From positions 1-32,004 of the forward strand of contig JAQIWT010000143.1 in NCBI GenBank assembly GCA_034696485.1: a stretch of DNA of 32,004 bases, written 5' to 3'. Source of the DNA: Isohypsibius dastychi. Its lineage: Eukaryota > Tardigrada > Eutardigrada > Parachela > Isohypsibiidae. Under the pieces are notes generated by a model. The model did not search any database. It was given only the letters and a program-made list of their open reading frames with translations, and was not told the DNA's origin. A program made the position numbers and the translations under genes. Positions 8,183 through 31,835 of this stretch are shown here, piece after piece (the first letter of the stretch is position 1; the number at the start of each line of letters is the position of its first letter).

Positions 8183-11100
8183 ATGGTGCTGGAGGGCAGA
8201 GCACAAGTCATCTACGAAGGACTTCAGTCGATCTACAAAAATCTCCCTTAAGAAAAGGTGAGGCCGTTGTGTGCTTTAGTTAGTGAATTGGATTTCTGCA
8301 GTTGTGATGATGTTCGAGCTTGATTGCGAAAGCTTATCGATATGGTGTTGCAGATATTACCTGAGATCATCGATCGTGAGAAGGATGAAATGTTGGTGGA
8401 GATTATGCGTCATTGGAAGGAATATTCTATGGGTTGCATGATGATCGGAGATGTTTTGAGACATGTGGTGGTTGCTTCGTGAACGGAATCGTGTTTTGTT
8501 GTTGGTGTTTAGTGGTTATCTTATTTAGAATTTGCATTATGTCGTAAGGGAAGGCTTGGAGAGTGTCCCAGTTGGGACACCGAATATTCGGAGAAAATGT
8601 CATTATGCGGATGAAAGTTCAGTTGGCGATTTGGAGTGTAATTGTTGGAGCATTGAATGGATAAAAAAATGCCGTCGCTTTACCGGAGAGTTTCTCTGAA
8701 ATGTTGGACGAGTCCGAAGAGAAGGGGAGGACTCATTTCTATAGGGAATCGGTGGAGACGCTATTCTTGGAGGCATTTGCTCTGAAGCACACGGTGAGGT
8801 CTATTTTCTTCTTTGATTTACAATTAAAATCGCTGCCTGCGGACCCATTCAACGCGGATTGTTTTCGTTGACCCTCAAGTTAGATTACCAGCAATTGCGT
8901 TTCGTTGATAAAATGAATGAATATATTGAATGCATGTGGTGTACATTAAATTTTGTCAAGGATTAATTTTGCAATGAAGTCGAAATTTTGGAATATCGTC
9001 AGCAATTCGATGGCGTTCTGGTGAACTTTTATTTGCGAGTTACCTGGTGCCTTATATTTATGCGAGTTGTTGTATGTGTCAATTTTAGACTGTTCTATTA
9101 AAGTTCCTCATGTAGTGATTAATGAAAATGCCACCAGCTCTTATTATGTCGTCTGTACATGGCAGTATCTTTGAAGCATTTGCTCTTTGTTGCAGGTGGA
9201 GGTTGCGACAAATTTTGCGGATCGTAACATTTATGATTATGCAGTTGATGTCCTCAAGCAAGTCGACGTTGGAATGCGTTCGGCAGAAACTTGTTTACCT
9301 TTTTCGGTTCCCGATTGCCTTAAAAGCCGCTTTGTGGATTACTTCATTGTCAAACCGCTTGACAAACTAGCGAGCAACCTTCCGGATGATTCCTCCAAAA
9401 CCACGAACGTACTTTACACCAACAACCTCCATGAAGAAATTACGGAAGTGACTTTGCAATTGGGTTCAGGAGGTTCCATACGTGTTATCGCGGAATGTCG
9501 GAATTTCGAAGGTAACTTGTGGGATTATTTAGGAGGGGAGGGAGGGGAGGGGAGTGATGTCGCACGTACTTGACATTGATCTGGTAGGGAATTTCACACA
9601 TGTTCGTCATTTCAGGAATGGGAATGATTGTTCAGATGTTTAGAGAATTCAAAGGCGACCTAGCCGTGATCATCGGTGCATTCAGTTTCATCATTCGAAA
9701 AGCCGTCAGTGTGGACATCAGTTTGGCCTTTAGTCCAGTAATCGATGTTCCGAACCGATCTATCACGGTAATTTTGTAACATCGGGTGGATTAGAGTTTG
9801 GGGATATGTATTCTATATGTCCATTTTTCCAAGGCATTGCTAGAGACATTGAAGAAATTTAGAAGAATTCTGCGTTGGTATTTCGCAAGCAGTAGACAAA
9901 TCGAAGAAATGATACAGACCGAAGTTCGGTGGTTTCAATGTCACGACCCTCGTCCATCCAAGATTTTGACATATTTCTACGACAGCGTCATCAGCAAAAT
10001 CAAGCAACTGGTATGTCTAGAGAATTGTTTTAGAAATGTTCGTTGAGCCGCTCATGTGGGCATTTTGATATCATGAGTCGTCTACGTTTGTCAGGATATC
10101 ATATTGCCAACATGTTTACTTTCCAGAAATCTTGATTAGAACTTCAGCCTTTCATCGACATGTTTCTGCTGCTGTGCCCCTTCATCACGGATACGAGAAC
10201 CTTCAAATAGCATTATGTGTTCGATCTACGCAAGCGTCTGCTCTGCAGTTCATTGAATTTCGCTCGTGTCGATCAAGAGATCAATCTCATCCAGAGTTTG
10301 CGATGTCGATTTCGTGATGATTCCATCCTCATGGGGAACTTGCGGCTGATCGCGAATGATCACCAAGAATCGTGCCGTGTCGTGGAAATTCATATGGATG
10401 CAATGGAAGTGACTGGAAAGGTCACAAAAAGTTCAAAGCATCTTCTGCAGTTGGTTCATGTTTGTTTGGTCGTTTAGGATGAAGTGCCGGGTCGCGTCGA
10501 TTTGGAGGTGATGTTCCTGACTGCTCATGCTTGGGATATACCGGTGCCAACGAGCGAAATAATACTGCCCATTGTTGCACAGCAGGCATTGGAACGATAT
10601 TGCGCGTGACTGTTGTTTTCTCATGAACTCTGTATCATGCTACATTTCAATTACTTTAATTCTTTCACTTTCTTTATAGACTTTTCGGCAATCGTGGTTT
10701 CTGGAAGAAAATGGTCCTGCAGCCTGCTCTAGGATGCGCCGAACTGCGCGGCCATTTTTCTGATCGTGAATACGTCTTTGAAGTGCCTACGCCCCTGATG
10801 ATAATCCTCCTGCTCTTCAACGACCAAGATGTTTGGACCCTTGCGCAGGTGGCAAGTGTCACAAAGATGGCACTCGGTGACTGTGAGACTTTATTAAAGT
10901 CTTTGACTTCTGCTGAGGCGAGACTTCTGGTGAAGATTGAAAACAACGGTAAAATGCTCTTGTTTTAATTGTGATTGTCATGTGTCATTGTGTTGGTTAT
11001 TTTTGAAGGAAACGACACGTTGTACCAATTTAATCATGGATACTCTTCTGCGGAAAAACGAATCATTCTCCGCTTCGGAATCATTTACCCTCCTGCAATC

Positions 11101-11927: not shown

Positions 11928-12730
11928 TTGAAAGTCAGCGGGCGCTGATTGTTTTTTGTACAACGCAGCGGTCCGAACGCGAGTTCTTCTATAACCCGCG
12001 TGATCGAACACGCCCGCCAACGCGTTTTGTGCACCGGGCACCTTAAAAACGGCTTGACCAAGTGCAAAACACAAAACCAGTGAAATGCATTCGTGCTTCA
12101 AATTTTTCAAAACTAACCATGGCTCGTGGAAAAACTATATCGCCAGACCTCGCCAAAGCTGTTCACGAGCTTCGACGTCAGGGAAGAACGTTGAAGCAAA
12201 TCGCCCAGGTATTTCAAAAAGCGTCAGCTGGGTCGATTTTGTATTAAAGGATCGTTTGCCACTTTCTGGCGAGAAAGTTTGCGCCAAAACCCGTGGTCGG
12301 CCACGAATCGCAGGACTTGACAACGAGCTATTGCTGGAAGTTATGGTTGAAAATAACGACGATACATCAATTCGAGAGCTGACCGGGAAACTTGATGCGA
12401 AATGTGGAATTGTCGCTCACCGGGAAACAGTTCGACGTCGCATCAGGAAGGTCTTCAAAAACGTGAACGTGATTATTGATGAACTGACCGACGCGCACAA
12501 AATGAAACGTGTGAGATGGTGCAAAATGATGATAGAGAAGCTGAAGGAAGACCCAGGATTCTTCGACACCGTTTGGTTCTCTGACGAGGCAACATTTGAA
12601 CTTGGCTGCTGCAGACAAAGGGTGAGCTTCGTTAGAATTAAATTATTTTCCATATTACCGATGTACTTTTGCGCAAACATAATGTCCCCCCCCCCTTGAA
12701 ATTGATTGAGTTAAAGCAGTGATAAAAACC

Positions 12731-13144
12731 AGGGGCTAGTTTGAGCTGTTGGAGGGTGTATATTTTATATACACCCCTACTTTTCTCGACTTCTATGAGT
12801 CGAAAAAAATGTTGAGTATTGTCTTCTTGTTCAGTTTTTTTCTGATCCAGGGTGTCTACTCAGGGGGGCAACGGTTTAAAGACCCTGAAGGGGACAGCGA
12901 GGGGGGGGGGAGGTGGGGGGCGGCCAATCAAAAAAGCCCGAATAATTTCGCGCTTTCCGGATTGACTGCCCCTTGTGCTGTCCCCTTGGGGGTTTGTAAA
13001 ATGTTGCCCCCTTGAGTAAACCTACCAAATCAGAAAAAAACTGAACAAAAAAATAATACTCAACATTTTTTTCAACTCATAGGAGTCGAGAAAAGCAGAG
13101 GTGTATATAAAATATTCACCCTCCAACAGCTCAAACTAGCTCCT
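12731..13144. mobile_element. 0.41-kb foldback element with about 180-bp inverted arms
   Basis: The left arm (12731 to about 12912) and right arm (about 12966-13144) are inverted copies that match closely with scattered mismatches and short indels: GCTAGTTTGAGCTGTTGGAG, then TTTTCTCGACT, then ATGTTGAGTATT, then GGGGACAGC towards the centre. A short G-rich spacer lies between them. The element is flanked by an exact direct repeat TGATAAAAACC (12720-12730 and 13144-13154), a 10-11 bp target-site duplication. No coding sequence fits. It sits in the intron of the Tc1-like transposase. The structure suits a non-autonomous foldback element; the duplication length is longer than Tc1 (2 bp) and near that of Mutator-like elements. 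Confidence 0.85.
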
Positions 13145-13398
13145 GATAAAAACCCAAAATGAAACAAGACGAGTGAGAATGATGGAACGATTGAAAAAAT
13201 GGATGATAAATAAATGAATAACCGAATGGGTAAATCAACAAATAACATCATACTGTAATATGAATATTTTTACATTATATTTAGATGAACTCTTATAGTT
13301 TTACATAATAATACACAATGATATTCCCGTTCATAATAAATGTTGTTTTGATGATAAGCATTTTGAACTTTACTATGCAATTCTTTGGTTAATGATCG

Positions 13399-13419
13399 CC
13401 CCCCGGGGGGGGGGGGGGG
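13399..13419 (+). repeat. C6-G15 homopolymer junction
   Basis: Six C bases are followed directly by fifteen G bases, within the transposase intron. Companion runs are C10 at 12686-12695 and G10 at 12901-12910. They are hard to sequence and may be unreliable in length. Confidence 0.85.
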
Positions 13420-14255
13420 ACAAATTATTGGTTGCGATAGATTGGTACAGTAGTTTATATCTGTTTGTTTTTCAGAAGTGGATTAAGAAGGGTGATTCCT
13501 GTTTTAGAAAGATCCATCAAGTACGAGCGTCGACCGCGAAAGGGAAGATTATGGTTTGGGGAGTCATTTGCGAGCAAGTGCCAGTTTGTTTCACCGTTGT
13601 ACCGCAAAAGGTTAAAATTAACCAAGACAACTATCAGGAGATGATGAAAGAGCATCTCTTGCCGCGTGTTGAACGCTATAATTCAAGTGGAGAAAGAAAA
13701 GTTATTTTCCAACAAGATGGCGCTTCATCGCATACTGCCCACACAACTTTGGATTTCTTCGGACGTCGAAAGGTTTCTCTTCTACCGGACTGGCCAGCGA
13801 AGTCACCAGATCTCAGTCCAATCGAAAATTTCTGGGGCCTTATGAAGCAACGTATGAATAAACATCCGCCGCTCAACATCCATCAGCTCGAGAGGCGGGT
13901 TTATGAAGAATGGCATAACGTTTGCAATGTTCAAACGTGTAGCAATCTCTACAAAAGCATGTTAAATCGACTCGAATTATGTGTTGCGAATGATGGTGCC
14001 CGGATCCGATACTGAGAAATGAACTGTTTTCATTTTCTAGTCTTTCAGCGAGTTGTTCTTTCATTTTTTTTAATTTTTGATCTCACAAAAAGTATGTTAA
14101 TAGTTTTTGCAACTGTTGATGGTTAATAAAACAATCAAACCGATCAGCTCAATCAACTCGGTTGGTGCGGTAGGGCGGGGCTTAGTTTTCCAGAGAATAA
14201 AGTGGAGATCTGTAGGGATATATCGAGACTATACCTTCTTTGACGGAAATCTGTT

Positions 14256-14645: not shown

Positions 14646-14793
14646 ATTAAGAACACAAACAGTATTCCTGTTTTTTAATAATAACCCTCTTATAAGCAAA
14701 ATTTGGACGCATATTCGTAGTTTCATAAAACGCATCACTTCCCTCATCGGTGAATCCATTGTCCTCGCGGACGTGGAGCGCCGAAGCTTTGCC

Positions 14794-16111
14794 CTAAGTT
14801 CGCCGGAGTTCCCTGCCGAATGCTCTCTTCATCTTTCGTCCAAGAACTTCGGCCGAGTGAAATGGAAAAAGATATCCTCTTCTCCGAAGACTGCTGTAAT
14901 GGCGAACAAAAAAACATATCAAATACTACCAGTCAGTTACTCACCATTCGTAGAAATGTGATGATTCGGTTGTAAATTCTCCCCCCGGGTTGATATCGAA
15001 AGTTATCACGCAACCTACAAAATGAGAACAAAAATATCAGCGTAAGAAAAAAAGAGGATCAGTGATACGGACCAGTTAACAGTTACGGCATGGGAAGTAT
15101 GACCGATAGTACCATCCCGGGGTAATTCAGGGGTTTTGATTTTTGAAAACAACCTCTTCAGATTCTCAGCGCGTGCTGTAATCTTCTTGTTCTGTCGAGT
15201 ACCAACCCATGCTTCCAACTGGCCAGGGACATAATGTTTAACGAATTTTTCGACGTTGACCACCGGCCCGGCGGTGTTTTTTTCGTCTGTACAAACACAA
15301 AACGATGCCGTCTCAGCCACATCGACCCACCTTGGCATGGTAAAATTGACCGCTTCCGCCACAATTTCACCCAAGTTGAAACCCATATGGTATGAGCGTA
15401 GCCACGTGATGATAAATTCCCCGGCATGCTGAGCCACCTAATTTTTTGGTTTGAATAAATTGTATGTATTCACCGCGCAGCATTGTTTCAATTTTTTCCG
15501 CTTCACTGGTCAGAAATGAGTACCAGTATTTATCCGCACAAAAATGGTTGAAATTAATGGACGGCAAATCAAAGTCTTCCGTATGGAGCACAAAGTTACT
15601 GCCCAATGTGCCGAAATGACAGAACGATGTGTTCAGCCCGATTAATAGCTCTTGTGGTCGATACAATGTCGTGGGAAATTTCGATAAATTCCAAACCTAC
15701 AAAATTGTCGAAAACAATCATACTAATTTTTGAGACTCCACAACTACCTTCAGGTCAGAATCGAACAACGACGCAACTTCATCTAAAAATTTTGAGCCGT
15801 ATAGTATGAAAGTCCTGGTCATCATGTTGAACAAATCGCCCAACGTCCTGCGATAATCCAATTGACCATTTTTCAATAGAGTGACTTCCACCATCCCACT
15901 GTAAAACGACTTGGCACGTTCCCAGAATGACCCCAAAAGCATCGTAAATGAAATTGCCGCAGCAAAAACAACCGTCACTCCGGACACTTTGGACACACAC
16001 TTCGTAGTCTGAAGGTATGAATTTTTGACGTTGACTCCAGTACGGATGGTTTTGTCACCATCCTTGCGGGGAACCCACTCTCTGGGTGGAATAACCGACG
16101 AAAAAGAAGAA
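14794..16111 (-). CDS. KDM4-like histone demethylase: end of JmjN, JmjC domain and tail
   Basis: KDM4 enzymes remove methyl groups from histone H3 lysines using Fe(II) and 2-oxoglutarate. Exons read on the minus strand: 16111-15748, 15696-15474, 15437-15113, 15014-14945 and 14893-14794. The first exon opens with V-I-P-P-R-E-W-V-P-R, the end of a JmjN domain, and later has L-F-D-S-D-L-K joining in phase to V-W-N-L. The JmjC iron ligands are present: H and E of L-H-T-E-D-F-D (15585-15577) and H of S-Y-H-M-G-F-N (15389). The 2-oxoglutarate lysine of D-K-Y-W-Y-S is at 15531. C-V-C (zinc ligands) follows. The junction 15474/15437 is abnormal: 36 nt, out of frame, and about 25-30 residues holding the other two zinc ligands are missing. 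The N-terminal half of JmjN is not here but at 19734-19856 on the other strand. The last two introns splice in phase; tail reading frame is uncertain. Confidence 0.85.
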
Positions 16112-16135
16112 CTGAAAGATGGTACATAAATCTAC

Positions 16136-16447
16136 CGCCAGTACAAAAAAGTACTGCCGGTACAATTTGGAGTACATTTAACCAGCTAGATCTCTAGTAC
16201 AGAAAAGTACTGCCGGTGAGAACACAGCTCAGCTAGTACAGAAAGATACTGTCAGTACGATTTTGTATTGCCAGTACAAAAATCTACTGCCAGTCGAATA
16301 CTTATTTCATTTGTGGTACAAAGAAAAACACTGGGAGTGCAGTATGATTTTTTTGACCTGCTTGAACCACAAGTACAAAAACATACTGCCGTTGAATACA
16401 TGATTTCAACTTGTACAAAAACATACTGCCAGTACGAAAATCTACTG
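16136..16447 (+). repeat. Left inverted repeat: array of GTAC / TACTGCC(A/G)GTAC units
   Basis: Irregularly spaced short units of the form GTACAAAAAYATACTGCC or AGTACTGCCGGTAC recur about eight times. The inner 100 bp (16349-16447) starts with TTTTTTGACCTGCTTGAACC and is an inverted copy of 20039-20160, differing by about four bases and a 19-bp extra unit. It lies directly upstream of the KDM4 exon beginning at 16111, so it is intronic to that gene in the proposed original arrangement. Confidence 0.85.
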
Positions 16448-16559
16448 TTGTTTACAGATAAGGAAGAGAAAAACCAAGTTGTGTTCACCAAATGCGGATG
16501 TGTTCACCGTCGCAATCGACGAAGTCCTGAATTTGGTTAAAACACTGAAAATGATTCAG

Positions 16560-16702
16560 GAAAAGCGACAAGCCTTTCCAAACCCGTTACCACCCCGAAA
16601 CGTCAAAAGAACCGATACGAAACAGGTACTAAAATTTCGAAGAAAAAACCCCTTCTTGTTTCACCATCCGGTGATCCTTATGATGATGTGGACGATTTTT
16701 AG
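16560..16702 (+). CDS. Possible terminal exon of an unrecognised gene
   Basis: After an ATGATTCAG acceptor-like site, a frame runs 47 codons to TAG 16700-16702. It is basic first (K-R-Q-K-N-R-Y-E-T-G-T-K-I-S-K-K-K) and ends in an acidic tail (G-D-P-Y-D-D-V-D-D-F), which looks like a protein C-terminus. Upstream exons would fall in or beyond the inverted-repeat array, so if the segment has been inverted this exon may also be detached from its gene. Evidence is compositional only. Confidence 0.25.
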
Positions 16703-17056
16703 CAAGTTCATTTTTTTAAAACAGTAAAAGTTCCCGTTTTGGGTTTGTTTTTCGATTTTATTGATGATACTTCAGCAGTTTTTTTCTTCTCTTTTGATGA
16801 CGTTTTCACTTCGGGTGTTGTTTCCATTTGATTTTCGGGAACAAGTTAAAAAACCTCCATTTCATTCAAGTAGACTTGAGTAGTAAGGTAGCTGACAAAC
16901 CCGATCTTTGAAACGGGCTCGTTCAATCAAGAAAGCAAATTCCCGCGAAAAACAGGATACTCACCAATGTTCTCGGAATGTGGAGTTTCGTTGTCAAGAT
17001 CTTTCTTATACCGGCATTAAAAATTATTAAACTGTTTACTGAAACTTTTGTTGTTC

Positions 17057-17817
17057 ATGACGTCTTTCGATAATTTGAATTCAAACGAAAAGTCAAACAA
17101 AGTGAAAATTAACGAGGTGATCGCGGCGACCAAAAAGGACCTTCAGAATGTCAAGCCTCTAATTTGCGATATCACTCATGATGACACTAACCATATTGTT
17201 GATATTATTGAGAAGATCAGCAAGGATAAGTGTATGCTTCTGTAGCAACAAGATTTAGGAAAAGATGCCGAAGAATACAAAAAGGCAAAATTTCAAGCAG
17301 GCCAAAATCACGGAATAATCTTTTGTCTTGATAGTAAATTAATCGGGAGCAGTAAACTTGAACAGAAAGTCACAATCGAGTGTCTGACTGGCACGGAAAA
17401 TTAATGTTCTCGAATCCGATTTGTTCCTCATTCTGCCGATTATGAATTGGATTTCTGACAGAGTTGAGCTGTTCTCGCGTGGAACGTATAGTTGCGAAGA
17501 AGCACCATTTTCCTCGCTTCTTTTGCACCGCACAAACAATAGTTCCCAGCGAGCCCAAAAATGTAAAAATGTTACTATTACATTGTGTATTTGTGAATTT
17601 GTGTGATCTTTTGTGTCTGTTATTCTAGGAACAACAAGAACAAATAAGTAACAAAAAAACAATAAATTTTCAGGAGGTAGAGCAGGCTATTAGACAGGCC
17701 GAGATTTTCGAAAAAGGAAGTTCACAGTTGATAAGGCCCGAAGAGTTTAAAAACTGGATGAATATATCAGTCGAAAATCTAAAAGTGTCAAATCATATTA
17801 TAAAATATCGTGATTAA
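17057..17817 (+). CDS. Unrecognised coil-rich coding region
   Basis: From ATG 17057 a charged, helix-prone frame runs (K-V-K-I-N-E-V-I-A-A-T-K-K-D-L) to an in-frame TAG at 17243-17245 and continues open beyond it (D-A-E-E-Y-K-K-A-K-F-Q-A-G). A better-supported final exon, 17629-17817, follows TTATTCTAG and reads E-Q-Q-E-Q-I-S-N-K-K to TAA, with R-P-E-E-F-K-N-W-M. A frame around 17400-17570 (L-E-S-D-L-F-L-I-L-P) may be an internal exon. The pieces are probably one gene, but phases between them were not established. No domain is recognised. The region lies within the segment bounded by inverted repeats. Confidence 0.35.
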
Positions 17818-18020
17818 CTATAGCTCCCAAAATGCTACAAATAATCTAGAACGATTTTTGTGAGGAGGATTCTGTTACCGGTTCCGATTTTGTTTGAACT
17901 GGGGTAGGTTCCACAGGCGATCCTCTCACCGGGTTCTCTTTCACCAGCATTCCTCTAATCGGGATCAGTTCACCGGAAATCCCATAGTTCACCGGTACGG
18001 TAGTCGGGACGGATGCTGCT

Positions 18021-18133
18021 GTATCTCCTATATCTATCTCTATCTCTATCTCTATCTCTTCGGATGCTGCTCTATCTCTATCCGCTCTATCTCTATCCGC
18101 TATATCTTCGGATGCTGCTCTATCTCATATCTC
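18021..18133 (+). repeat. TATCTC microsatellite with GGATGCTGCT interruptions
   Basis: A run of TATCTC/TATCTA hexamers is broken three times by CGGATGCTGC(T), forming a higher-order repeat. A loose GTTCACCGG-type repeat lies just upstream (about 17890-18000). Confidence 0.85.
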
Positions 18134-18382
18134 CTCAAAATCGAACGGAACTTCGTGCTTTCTCCGAAAAAAAGGAGTTTATTACACATATTATCTATGA
18201 AAAAACGCATCTGCCAGTGTAAGCTTGATCATGGACCTCTGCAAGAATGGATCAAACGCAAAACTGGGAAGCATCAGTCGAAGTTATGTTGATTATGAAA
18301 TACGAATATATGTTCAGATGCACTTCCGGGTGTACTTCTACCTCGCTTTTCACTGTTAATTCTCGCTCAAATATTTCAAATT

Positions 18383-18789
18383 TCAATTGTTTTCCAGTTG
18401 AAATAATTTACAATTTCGAATCTCACCTGAACACAAGTCCGGGACAAGTAAACCACGCATTCTTTCGGGCCAATTCATCAAAATCAAGCAATCGATTTCT
18501 ACATTTCGATCAACCAACATTGACTCCAAGTCTGGAAAACCCGGCTCAACAAGTGATGCAGATGGCATGGAATTCAGAGAATCGCCACGCAAATCAATTG
18601 ATCGAACTTTTTCAAATGTTTTTGCTGAAAGATGATCGAGGACAAAATAATAATTCCTTGGTCCGAGCAATCCAGCAATCGCTCCTCGATAACACAGATA
18701 CAATCTGTCACCGGACAGAATGTATGTGACCAGGAGTAAACTGAATTTATCGCAGCAACAAATAACATCAACTGCTTGAAAAGTGCCAT
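18383..18789 (-). pseudogene. Secreted LRR protein, N-terminal part, frameshifted
   Basis: Starting at ATG 18789 on the minus strand, a signal peptide (M-A-L-F-K-Q-L-M-L-F-V-A-A-I) is followed by an LRR N-terminal cap: F-C-P-V-T-D-C-I-C then L-L-D-C-S-D-Q-G-I. The frame is lost at the A5 run (complement of 18619-18623). In the next frame an LRR continues: V-R-S-I-D-L-R-G-D-S-L-N-S-M-P, then F-P-D-L-E-S-M-L-V-D-R-N. One extra A would join the two parts. The rest of the LRR array and any membrane anchor are not visible. It shares its architecture with the LRR-like gene at 11577, but by eye they are not close copies. It lies inside the putatively inverted segment. Confidence 0.65.
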
Positions 18790-18889
18790 TTTAAATAGCT
18801 GGCAAGGTATGTGATATGTAGCGTAATAATCAAACTTCAGCTTCCATATCGCGTCAGAGTGACGATAATAACGCTTTGCCTCTTTCAAC

Positions 18890-19725
18890 GCGACCCGAAG
18901 GTTTTTTGTTTGATCAATCAGTGAGGAAAGACCGGCAGAGCCGGGTGTTTAACACATAACTTCAGGGGTGAAATTTCCTGCTCAAATGATCTGTTCTCAT
19001 TTTCAGATTGCGATGATTTAGTCCCGAAATAAAATGACGTATTCTCGCAAATCGTCTAGTGTATGGTATATTCGAACCTTATGCGCTCTATTTCATCACG
19101 AACGAACAGGAAGGAAATCAATTTGGTAGCATATGACTGGAAGAAGTTTAGAAAATGTTTCTACATTCGGATTATCTTGCTGTAATCTTTTCTGTTGGAT
19201 TCAATCGGTTTTGATCGATCATGTTCAATCTTGAGGCCCATCAGGTGCAGATAGGCTCCTCGGATCTCGCTTACGGCTGGAAATTTCGTTATTCCGAAAT
19301 CAGGACGTGAATTGGGAGGCAGTCTGGAAATGGTTTCTATATTCGAGCGACGTTGACATTCCCATCATTGCATTCATTCGGTTTCCGTTGAGCGAATTTG
19401 ATCGTGTTGTTTGATAGGTTGTAATCGGCCCTTCGGAATTTCATTTAATAATTGATTATACGCCGGTTCTCTATTACATTTAAGGGAGAATATTGTTCAA
19501 TAAAAGCCTTACCCCAGTGAATAACTATGGACATGAATTGGGAATATTCGTGAGAAATTCAAGTTTTGAACCTCATTCCTACCTGAATTACAGTTTTTGT
19601 AACTCATCGCGCAAGTTGGCAATTGGTTGATATTTTGCGGAGAATCAAGGTTGAATTATTGCAGACAAGCTTAAACATCCCAATGTTACGGTTTTCAACC
19701 GTAATAATACCGTTCTGTTTTTCAG
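18890..19725. other. Non-coding stretch upstream of the JmjN exon
   Basis: No domain-bearing frame is seen on either strand. In the proposed original arrangement this would be the 5' flank or 5' intron of the KDM4-like gene and also the 5' flank of the minus-strand LRR gene. The last bases end in a good acceptor (CTGTTTTTCAG at 19725). Confidence 0.4.
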
Positions 19726-19733
19726 ATTTCACA

Positions 19734-19856
19734 ATGCCACGTTTTGAGAATGAGTTGTACATTCCAGTTTTTCAGCCATCCATAGAGGAATTCGAAAATT
19801 TTGAAACTTATGTTCAAACCATTTGCCGTAAATCGGGCACGTCGGGGATTTGTAAG
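19734..19856 (+). CDS. Orphan first exon of a KDM4-like gene: JmjN domain, first part
   Basis: The ATG at 19734 lies eight bases after CTGTTTTTCAG, consistent with a 5' UTR or trans-splice acceptor. The 41 codons encode M-P-R-F-E-N-E-L-Y-I-P-V-F-Q-P-S-I-E-E-F followed by E-N-F-E-T-Y-V-Q-T and S-G-I-C-K. This matches the start of JmjN (family pattern F-x-P-T-x-x-E-F-x-x-F-x-x-Y-I ... G-x-x-K). The exon ends AAG before GTAGAA, at the position where family members continue with V-V/I-P-P-K/R-E-W. No such continuation exists downstream on this strand, but the minus-strand exon at 16111 begins exactly there. The exon is therefore read as the detached 5' exon of the gene at 14794-16111. Confidence 0.8.
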
Positions 19857-19935
19857 GTAGAATGTAAGAATACAGTGCTGAAATATTCCCGTTCAAAACT
19901 GGTAAATCATTTTTGTATCACTTGAGAATTATGTT

Positions 19936-20160
19936 TGCACTGGCAGTGCGTTTTTGTACTATTGGTTTAAGCAGGTCAGAACCAAATCAAACTGCACTGG
20001 CAGTATCATCTTGTACCGCACAAAAAAAAATTATTTGACTGGCAGTAGATTTTCGTACTGGCAGTACAAAATCCTACTGGCAGTATGTTTTTGTACAAGT
20101 TGGGATCATGTATTCAACGGCAGTATGTCTTCGTACTTGTGGTTCAAGCAGGTCAAAAAA
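19936..20160 (+). repeat. Right inverted repeat: array of CTGGCAGTA / GTAC units
   Basis: This is the reverse-complement relative of the array at 16136-16447. It contains CTGGCAGTATGTTTTTGTAC-type units. Its outer 120 bp (20039-20160) ends GGTTCAAGCAGGTCAAAAAA, the inverted copy of the left array's inner boundary. It lies 80 bp downstream of the JmjN exon, so it too is intronic to KDM4. Confidence 0.85.
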
Positions 20161-20320
20161 TACATGGAGAAAGCCCTTGAAGAAAGTATGAATGCAGTTC
20201 GTCCAATCTTGCCGATGATGACCTCTACCGATGAACAACGACCCAACCTCATTCGAACAGTACCCAGCTAGCGTGCAACCTGCCATTACGCAGCATCATG
20301 AGGATCACAGTGATTTAACG

Positions 20321-20551
20321 TAAGAAACGGAGGAGATGGAAGGTTTTTCCAACGGATGTGATTACTGCCCAGAAAATGACCACTTCAGCAGTGAGTGTTT
20401 GAATAACCCGCAAGGAGCTGGACCGTGCTATTTCTGAGGAGACTACCGCCATTACAGTTCAGTGTGCGTTGAATGTCCATGCCAGTTCTGCGGTGTGGAA
20501 AACGGTAGCCATTTCAGCTCACAATGTTCTGACAATCCCTCAAACACTTGA
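20321..20551 (+). pseudogene. CCHC zinc-knuckle remnant (Gag-like), with stops
   Basis: In one frame three zinc-knuckle-like units occur. C-D-Y-C-P-E-N-D-H-F-S-S-E-C fits CX2CX4HX4C. C-Y-F-stop-G-D-Y-R-H-Y-S-S-V-C has the second cysteine replaced by TGA (20435-20437). C-Q-F-C followed by H-F-S-S-Q-C has a longer C-to-H spacing. A TAA precedes them at 20321-20323. Such knuckles bind nucleic acid and are typical of retroelement Gag proteins, including invertebrate families, though cellular proteins also carry them. No reverse transcriptase is visible nearby. Confidence 0.6.
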
Positions 20552-21364: not shown

Positions 21365-22157
21365 ATGCCTGTGGTTGCAAAAACACTCCATCTTGAGAAA
21401 ACCTTGCGGGAGCTTTCCCCGTCAATGGTTGCCAGGATCTTCGATGCGGTAGAACCATGCCCTTCGTTCATGAAGGATGTTCATCGTTCAATCATGCAGG
21501 GACTGACAGCGGACGCGGAAAATTTTCAGATCCCGAGAAGAAGCACCGATAGACCCACAGGGAACAAGCCTTACTGAAAGGTACATCCGCAGTCAGAAGA
21601 TCGAGCAAGAACTAGATGAGTTGTGTTCGGATTTCGCAACTCGGTTGGAGACATACCATACACTTGATGAAAAAGTCGTTCTTGTCTCCTCTTGTGTCAG
21701 TTTGTTCTTACTGATTCATCTTTTTTCGAACGGAAATGGACGGGTAGCAAAAACTCTGGCAAGTCTGATGGATAGAACGAAGATTCTGCTCATTATTCTC
21801 GAAACGGGTGAGAACCAAAAGAACTACCTTTAAACTCTGCAAGAGTCGAGGTTAATACAGAAATATCACGACACTTCACCCAGCGCTCTTTCCCTGCTAA
21901 TACTGGAAAATGTCCATGAAACGTTGCGATGTGTCTACTTCGCACTTGAGCTATCCGAAAAGTGCCCGTACGAATGGTGCTGTGATTGCAGCTATAATGT
22001 ATCAGACCGAAAATGTCATGATTTTCTTCCCTGGTATTGGAACATCCAAGGTTGGCTTAAAGAAGACAACAGGTCCTTTTTGAAACGTTTCTATCGATTG
22101 TCATACAAAATGAGCTACCAGTTCCAATATTTTCTTGGTTCAATGTATCAGATTTAG
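21365..22157 (+). pseudogene. Fic-domain protein (FICD/HYPE-like), altered catalytic motif
   Basis: Fic proteins transfer AMP to protein side chains; animal FICD modifies the ER chaperone BiP. Here V-V-A-K-T-L-H-L-E-K-T-L resembles the FICD inhibitory helix (V-V-H-H-T-L-A-L-E-G-N), with its glutamate kept and glycine changed to lysine. D-V-H-R-S-I-M-Q-G-L and, after a frameshift at the T4 run 21523-21526, F-R-S-R-E-E-A-P continue the fold. The core motif at 21717-21752 reads H-L-F-S-N-G-N-G-R-V-A-K, against the family H-P-F-x-D/E-G-N-G-R-x-x-R, so the catalytic histidine and phosphate loop are present but the Asp/Glu is Asn. TAA at 21831-21833 interrupts a frame that stays open to 22157. About 45 residues between inhibitory helix and core are missing. 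The TPR and membrane segments of FICD are not visible; start taken as the first ATG in frame. Confidence 0.7.
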
Positions 22158-30993: not shown

Positions 30994-31429
30994 CTTGCTG
31001 TCCGTGAGAGAATAGTTAATTCAGTTGTTCCTTGTGGAGATGCTCTCATAATTTTATTTGCCTATAAAATGTGACAAATTTTGCAATGTTGGCGTTGCAG
31101 TCGGGATAGGGCTTTGTACAACCTGCTTTTTCTTACGTTATCTTTGTTGATCTGCATCTCGTGAACTGAATTGAAAACAACTCTGCGTTAGATCTTGTAA
31201 TTCGTGAGGTATCGATAGTGTGTGAAAAACAACCGGAAAACATTTAATAAAATAAAAAAATAAAAATAAATAAGGTTACAAAAGTTTCCTGCTTACCTTC
31301 CCCAACTTGAGTTGGCGTCCCCAACGTCATTTTTTGCTCCAATTCTGGCTCCAGGGTTATCTGTTATGTGAAATGTGAATTTTGGTGACAGTGAAACATT
31401 TGTATAGAGGAATTTCCACTTGAAAGACA

Positions 31430-31716
31430 CTGTCCGGCTTCGCCACAGGGATTCCGACCAGAGTCGGTGCACTCATTGATCGCGACGCAGATCCCCGGGC
31501 TTTTCTCACGGAAAGCGGGCGCGCATTTGCAGCTGATTTCGGAGCGCTCGTTGGTCAGGCACCGAGCATTGGCTTGGCAGGATGAGCGCTCACAACCGAC
31601 GGCGACGCATCGCTCGTTGACGGATTCATAACCGTTTGGACAGAAACAGACGTAGGAGCCACGTTCGTCTTTGCATCTGCCCGGAGAACAGGGGTTATCG
31701 ACACATTCGTTGACTT
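31430..31716 (-). CDS. EGF-repeat protein, one exon with two and a half EGF domains
   Basis: After a TTGGTGTTTGCAG acceptor (minus strand), the exon opens with E-V-N-E-C-V-D-N-P-C-S-P-G-R-C, a calcium-binding EGF start. It has all six cysteines through G-S-Y-V-C-F-C-P-N-G-Y-E and E-R-C. A second EGF domain follows (G-C-E-R-S-S-C-Q-A-N-A-R-C ... S-C-K-C ... G-I-C), and a third starts A-I-N-E-C-T-D and has three cysteines before the frame leaves the family pattern near 31430, presumably at an exon boundary without an obvious donor. Such tandem EGF modules occur in extracellular matrix, Notch-like and fibrillin-like proteins. A GTGAGT donor at about 31816 suggests an upstream exon on the same strand. 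This is an animal-specific architecture. Confidence 0.8.
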
Positions 31717-31835
31717 CTGCAAACACCAAAAGGTTTTTAAAGGTCACGAAGACACGTTTCACCAAATCAACTGACCAAGAATAAAACTGGCTTCAGCGCC
31801 TGACATCATGACTCACCGCGGATCGTGCTTTGGGA

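Follow-up and report, generated by a model that had tools for sequence, protein, structure and literature searches.

The order of exons at related loci gives good support to an inversion of about 3.7 kb that would have split a KDM4-like gene in the tardigrade Isohypsibius dastychi, parting its JmjN exon from the remainder. The window, that is, the whole stretch of 32,004 nucleotides analysed, is contig C143 (JAQIWT010000143.1), and genome searches were run over 30,365,899 bases in 1648 contigs; among the stretches fetched from these, L033 and L045 are parts of contig C122, L043 and L044 are parts of C86, and L025 is part of C276. Judged from its sequence, the C143 locus is probably a pseudogene with an inversion at an intronic minisatellite array, for which a staggered break is the likeliest route. 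It looks like ordinary gene decay that has left a clear scar, and not like a genetic switch.

The exon on the plus strand was identified by its match to the Pfam family PF02375 (E 2.3e-9, 37.3 bits, cut-off 26); its donor (AAG/GTAGAA) is present and an acceptor-like TTTTTCAG lies just upstream. The KDM4-like continuation runs on the minus strand, from 16095 to about 15072. Exon 2 finds no Pfam match by itself, and shares 66% and 63% of its amino acids with the corresponding exons of C86 and C122, respectively. Exons 3 and 5 both match PF02373 (E 7.9e-10 and 3.7e-6), and when joined they find KDM4C, D, A and B as their best matches among solved structures (top E 2.5e-23). The JmjC domain binds its metal through an H-E...H set of residues, which is retained here, as HTED and YHMGF of exons 3 and 5 align to HTED and YHAGF of KDM4C. 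These Pfam matches, together with colinear relatives, show that the placement of the two parts of the gene on opposite strands, pointed out in a first-pass annotation of this DNA, is real. Because two relatives elsewhere in the genome, C821 and C276, have a phase-0 intron in the same place, at the border between JmjN and exon 2, the two C143 exons belong together, and the same annotation was right to read the exon starting V-I-P-P-R-E-W as the continuation of JmjN. All features are listed in Table 1.

Table 1. Positions of the KDM4-like locus, its repeats and its neighbours in the window.
Feature	Positions	Strand	Basis or remark
Cullin part	10660-10968	+	PF00888, E 2e-12
Tc1/mariner-like transposase remains, two pieces	12058-14012	+	PF01498, E 4.1e-5 (below cut-off); PF13358, E 2.3e-10
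Stretch between the transposase pieces, like an inverted-repeat element	12727-13145		Matches C86 (L043 1727-2137) in both orientations, 74-75%
Downstream part alignable to C122	14691-15071	-	72% identity over 14691-15443
Exon 5, second JmjC half (YHMGFN...AEAVNF)	15072-15437 (3' end approximate)	-	PF02373
Remnant from exon-3 donor to exon-5 acceptor, 36 bases, exon 4 absent	15438-15473	-	Comparison with C821
Exon 3, first JmjC half, HTED and KYWY kept	15474-15696	-	PF02373; end placed at donor
Exon 2, open, starts V-I-P-P-R-E-W	15748-16095	-	Amino acid comparison with C86 and C122
Lost exon-2 splice acceptor	16096-16097	-	CG; three-way alignment without gaps here
R1, exon-2-side array piece	16115-16447	-	Repeat search, alignment, folding
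Near-identical inverted stretch, start of R1 (gene direction)	16349-16447	-	95/99 against 20043-20160
Putative inverted segment, 3713 bases	16448-20160		Orientation of exons and array against colinear C122
JmjN exon with start codon	19734-19856	+	PF02375, sequence
R2, JmjN-side array piece	19908-20160	+	Repeat search, alignment, folding
Near-identical inverted stretch, end of R2	20043-20160	+	95/99 against 16349-16447
Fic/DOC-like frame	21507-21833	+	PF02661, E 2.6e-5, 25.4 bits, cut-off 24
EGF-like repeats	31364-31792	-	PF00008, E 1.1e-8

The older order can be read in the paralogue C122, where a decayed JmjN exon (L033 2476-2586, plus strand) is followed by a 709-base intron containing the array and then by exon 2 (from 3296, plus strand), all colinear. 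Compared with this order, the segment that appears reversed in C143 begins directly after the exon-2-side array and closes with the end of the JmjN-side array, which supports the earlier proposal of a flipped segment splitting the gene and places it at about 16.45-20.16 kb. The flanks outside the gene had no match in the relatives, so that these give no view of the distal break in the old order, and a genome search with 16440-19960 for the older distal junction returned, besides the query itself, short matches alone (10 of 11 rows, 70-125 bases). The sequence at 20161-22300 matches contig C849 from the first base of the latter, and C849 ends where the older junction would lie. Within this region, 20262-21327 matches bases 1-1003 of C849 at 85%, and a zinc-knuckle-like reading was seen by eye at about 20360-20530.

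R1 and R2 are pieces of one minisatellite, with a unit of about 19 bases and a longer period of about 177 bases, and each is oriented relative to its own exon as a single intron would predict. When 20043-20160 was aligned with 16447-16349, 95 of 99 aligned bases were identical, with one 19-base gap, bearing out the first estimate by eye of inverted repeats about 95% alike. These terminal stretches resemble each other more than neighbouring array periods do, whether the latter are counted over the whole of a second, longer register, 19910-20157 against 16421-16177 (195/239, Fisher p 0.0003), or over its part outside the overlap (145/172, p 0.003). An ungapped repeat search between R1 and R2 gave 104 nt at 89%, and their longest exact words in common measure 28 bases. 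Both pieces fold strongly: 16115-16450 surpassed all 100 of its shuffles (z -6.0), and so did 19860-20165, folded as single-stranded DNA (z -4.9). Self-palindromy of R1, counted by 10-mers, was not above that of shuffles (0 of 319; shuffle mean 0.83). Genome-wide, the 19-base unit with two mismatches at most occurs in 23 places (20 forward, 3 reverse; the backward control gave 0 and 1), three of them in C143, two in C122 and one in C86, the other 17 being outside KDM4-like introns, on C779, C27, C146, C222 and C1120. The introns between JmjN and exon 2 of C821 and C276 gave no match to the C143 array. By eye, the tandem array seen in the JmjN intron of C276 (L025 8200-9200) is another one, built of longer units, so this intron may have acquired repeats more than once.

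To what extent the two terminal stretches cover the same part of the array in the paralogues depends on the register. In one register, 20022-20151 maps to L033 2679-2806 of C122 and the sequence from 16447 on to 2721-2963. The matching positions in C86 are L043 9213-9091 for 20037-20159 and 9162-8880 for the sequence from 16421 on, so that the two ends overlap on a single array in both cases. Another, higher-scoring register in C86 takes 19908-20066 to L043 9164-9009, and under other scoring the best matches in C122 are 20041-20096 to L033 2881-2936 and 16291-16235 to 2881-2937. The array is repetitive and its identities to C122 and C86, which are paralogues of the locus, are just 61-72%, so the overlap varies with the register. 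With this proviso, the overlapping mapping suggests that the inverted repeats may be the product of the inversion and not its cause, with one near-identical stretch beforehand that the inversion turned into two. In DNA, the C143 copy differs from C86 by 25% and from C122 by 28%, far more than the terminal repeats differ from each other, implying, provided that rates are similar, an inversion that is young relative to the duplications.

From these data the following course of events can be proposed. C143, C86 and C122 would be three related decaying copies of a KDM4-like JmjN/JmjC gene, whose JmjN intron held the minisatellite array. Breaks in this array and about 3.7 kb upstream would have been rejoined with the segment reversed, carrying the JmjN exon out of the gene, and a staggered break in the array would have copied some 100 bases to both ends, where they now stand as near-identical inverted repeats. 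A break in a strongly folding array, paired with one upstream, would account for the arrangement by a single step. What can be seen directly is the anatomy, the colinearity of C122 and the further lesions described below; from these we infer the staggered-break route, that there was one event, and the sequence in which the lesions arose.

The chief alternative, recombination between two inverted copies of the array that already flanked the segment in the same decayed copy, seems possible to us, if unlikely. It would lead to the same final anatomy, and an upstream second copy could be imagined, since the unit is not confined to KDM4-like introns; on the other hand, the array had no match in about 5.9 kb before JmjN in C122 (L033 and L045), nor in about 10.7 kb preceding the array in C86 (L043 and L044), an argument that is weak in both cases because these flanks are non-homologous to the C143 locus, and the near-identical match is short, with 99 aligned bases. 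An assembly error joining two haplotypes or copies is improbable. The assembly is fragmented enough to allow for one, but the window contains no N and the exact shared words are no longer than 28 bases, both of which make such an error unlikely, and the alternative order occurs in no other contig among the matches found.

The strongly folding 19-base array could in principle be a recurrent site of breakage that has helped to destroy this gene lineage in the tardigrade, although we regard this reading as doubtful. In two of the three array-bearing KDM4-like loci (C143 and C86), JmjN is no longer linked to exon 2, the connection being lost at the array or close to it, and the absence of a visible JmjN from the inspected part of C86 hints at a fragile site, though two cases are few.

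Apart from the inversion, the C143 copy carries further lesions. The dinucleotide directly before GTTATT is AG in C86, CG in C143 and AC in C122. The acceptor TTTCAG selected in the first-pass annotation was discarded; it lies 16 bases upstream of the ancestral acceptor site, which sits directly before GTTATT. The same annotation held that the flipped splice would be in frame if the T5 run had one base fewer, a claim that had to be rejected, as the three-way alignment is gap-free at this run and the T run in C143 is thus not an insertion. Exon 4, which in C821 encodes AAFPDMYKQCHSFLRHK..., is missing in C143, and with it the Cys/His part between the two JmjC halves, which is the zinc part of such proteins. 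The reading frame is broken, as exon 5 does not share the frame of exon 3, and JmjN and JmjC are unjoined on three counts: opposite strands, lost acceptor and disagreeing frames. With the acceptor and exon 4 lost, the protein would be broken even without the inversion, and flipping the segment back gives no whole frame.

Substitution patterns were compared over exons 2 and 3, without gapped sites and without 15 sites at which the three copies all differed. The changes specific to C143 are spread evenly over the three codon positions (17, 11 and 16 of 190, 190 and 189 sites; p 0.49) and so give no sign of constraint. The corresponding counts are 20, 29 and 21 for C86 (p 0.35) and 27, 27 and 42 for C122 (p 0.10), and in the JmjN exon C143 and C122 differ at 9, 9 and 12 of 32 sites per codon position. 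On the other side, exons 2, 3 and 5 run through 323 codons without a stop, which none of 2000 shuffles achieved; this reflects coding ancestry. In a simulation, 44 random changes left exons 2 and 3 open in 22% of 5000 trials. Since the three exons are still open over this length, the C143 copy may have begun to decay rather late, or it may keep some part of its role.

The C143 gene has relatives elsewhere in the genome. In C821, JmjN and exons 2, 3, 4 and 5 lie in one line and are open in the part read, giving an intact-looking core, a finding of the type that the first-pass annotation had listed as refuting its reading. A second JmjC exon downstream of 19856 on the plus strand was also looked for and is not among the 26 JmjC matches of the whole genome. 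Among the best 120 of 1080 matches to the C821 core, the closest are from Paramacrobiotus metropolitanus (69%) and Hypsibius exemplaris (66%), the remaining 118 reaching 53% at most. JmjN, exon 2 and the JmjC exons are also in one line in C276. JmjN was found genome-wide in four places at E <=0.001, plus the decayed one in C122. Out of 26 fetched stretches (L025-L050, most picked for JmjN or JmjC matches), 14 match C143 exons at E <0.05, and matches at E <=1e-5 were seen in 11 (L025, L026, L028-L031, L033, L036, L037, L039 and L043), from which the JmjN/JmjC family seems to be expanded in this genome. A search for a close intact orthologue of the C143 copy in other species, which needs shared 5-residue words, produced four distant matches alone (28-36% identity), the best-scoring one being a fungal JmjC protein. 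The literature search found nothing on the C143 locus or on tardigrade KDM4 genes, which is no proof of their absence from print.

Both sibling copies carry stops. In another explanation, a piece with JmjN and array was duplicated in inverted orientation next to a gene that has lost its own JmjN exon. C86 keeps the array and exon 2 with no recognisable JmjN in the part inspected, indicating that JmjN loss occurs in this clade; still, two events would be needed, and C122 is the sole other match to the C143 JmjN peptide in 30.4 Mb (two candidates scored), and we consider such a duplication very unlikely. Least credible of all is the recurrently flipping or polymorphic on/off switch for a chromatin regulator that the first-pass annotation had also raised, for while it would fit the near-identical inverted repeats, the strong folding of the array strands and the lack of JmjN near the array in the inspected part of C86, flipping back leaves the lost acceptor and the missing exon 4 unrepaired, changes by codon position give no sign of constraint, the repeats are told apart by 4 of 99 bases and a 19-base gap, which speaks against recent exchange, and C821 keeps its intact-looking, colinear core.

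As a decayed spare copy, the C143 gene reduces the importance of its inversion, and the locus has none as a regulator or switch. Its value is as a compact case in which an intronic minisatellite would have become the breakpoint of a small inversion dismantling a duplicate gene, while a sister copy still lets the older order be read. The case also advises against assuming, without an outgroup, that inverted repeats flanking an inversion are its cause. If the array does break repeatedly, repeat structure would be tied to the loss of duplicated chromatin genes.

The two sibling copies have the same array before exon 2 as C143 and are 75% (C86) and 72% (C122) identical to it in DNA. Unlike C143, C122 is colinear and has a stop in JmjN; in C86, inspection of 19.9 of its 37.6 kb revealed no recognisable JmjN. 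Among known inversions, the closest parallel we can draw is with Drosophila subobscura, for which inverted duplications exclusive to the inverted arrangement are taken as a sign of staggered breaks (PMC5080602). The near-identical inverted stretches at both ends of the C143 segment resemble these; in contrast, the C143 segment measures only 3.7 kb and lies inside a minisatellite, and its un-inverted state is known from paralogues alone, in which the distal break is unseen.

Compared with KDM4/JMJD2 genes (C821 and human KDM4A-D), the C143 copy departs in its JmjN, which lies on the opposite strand, in lacking exon 4 and thereby the Cys/His part, in its lost acceptor, and in exons 3 and 5, whose identity to those of C821 is just 36% and 39%. 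It nevertheless shares with them JmjN, the phase-0 border before (V/I)(I/V)PP, and a JmjC domain with HTED and YHxGFN.
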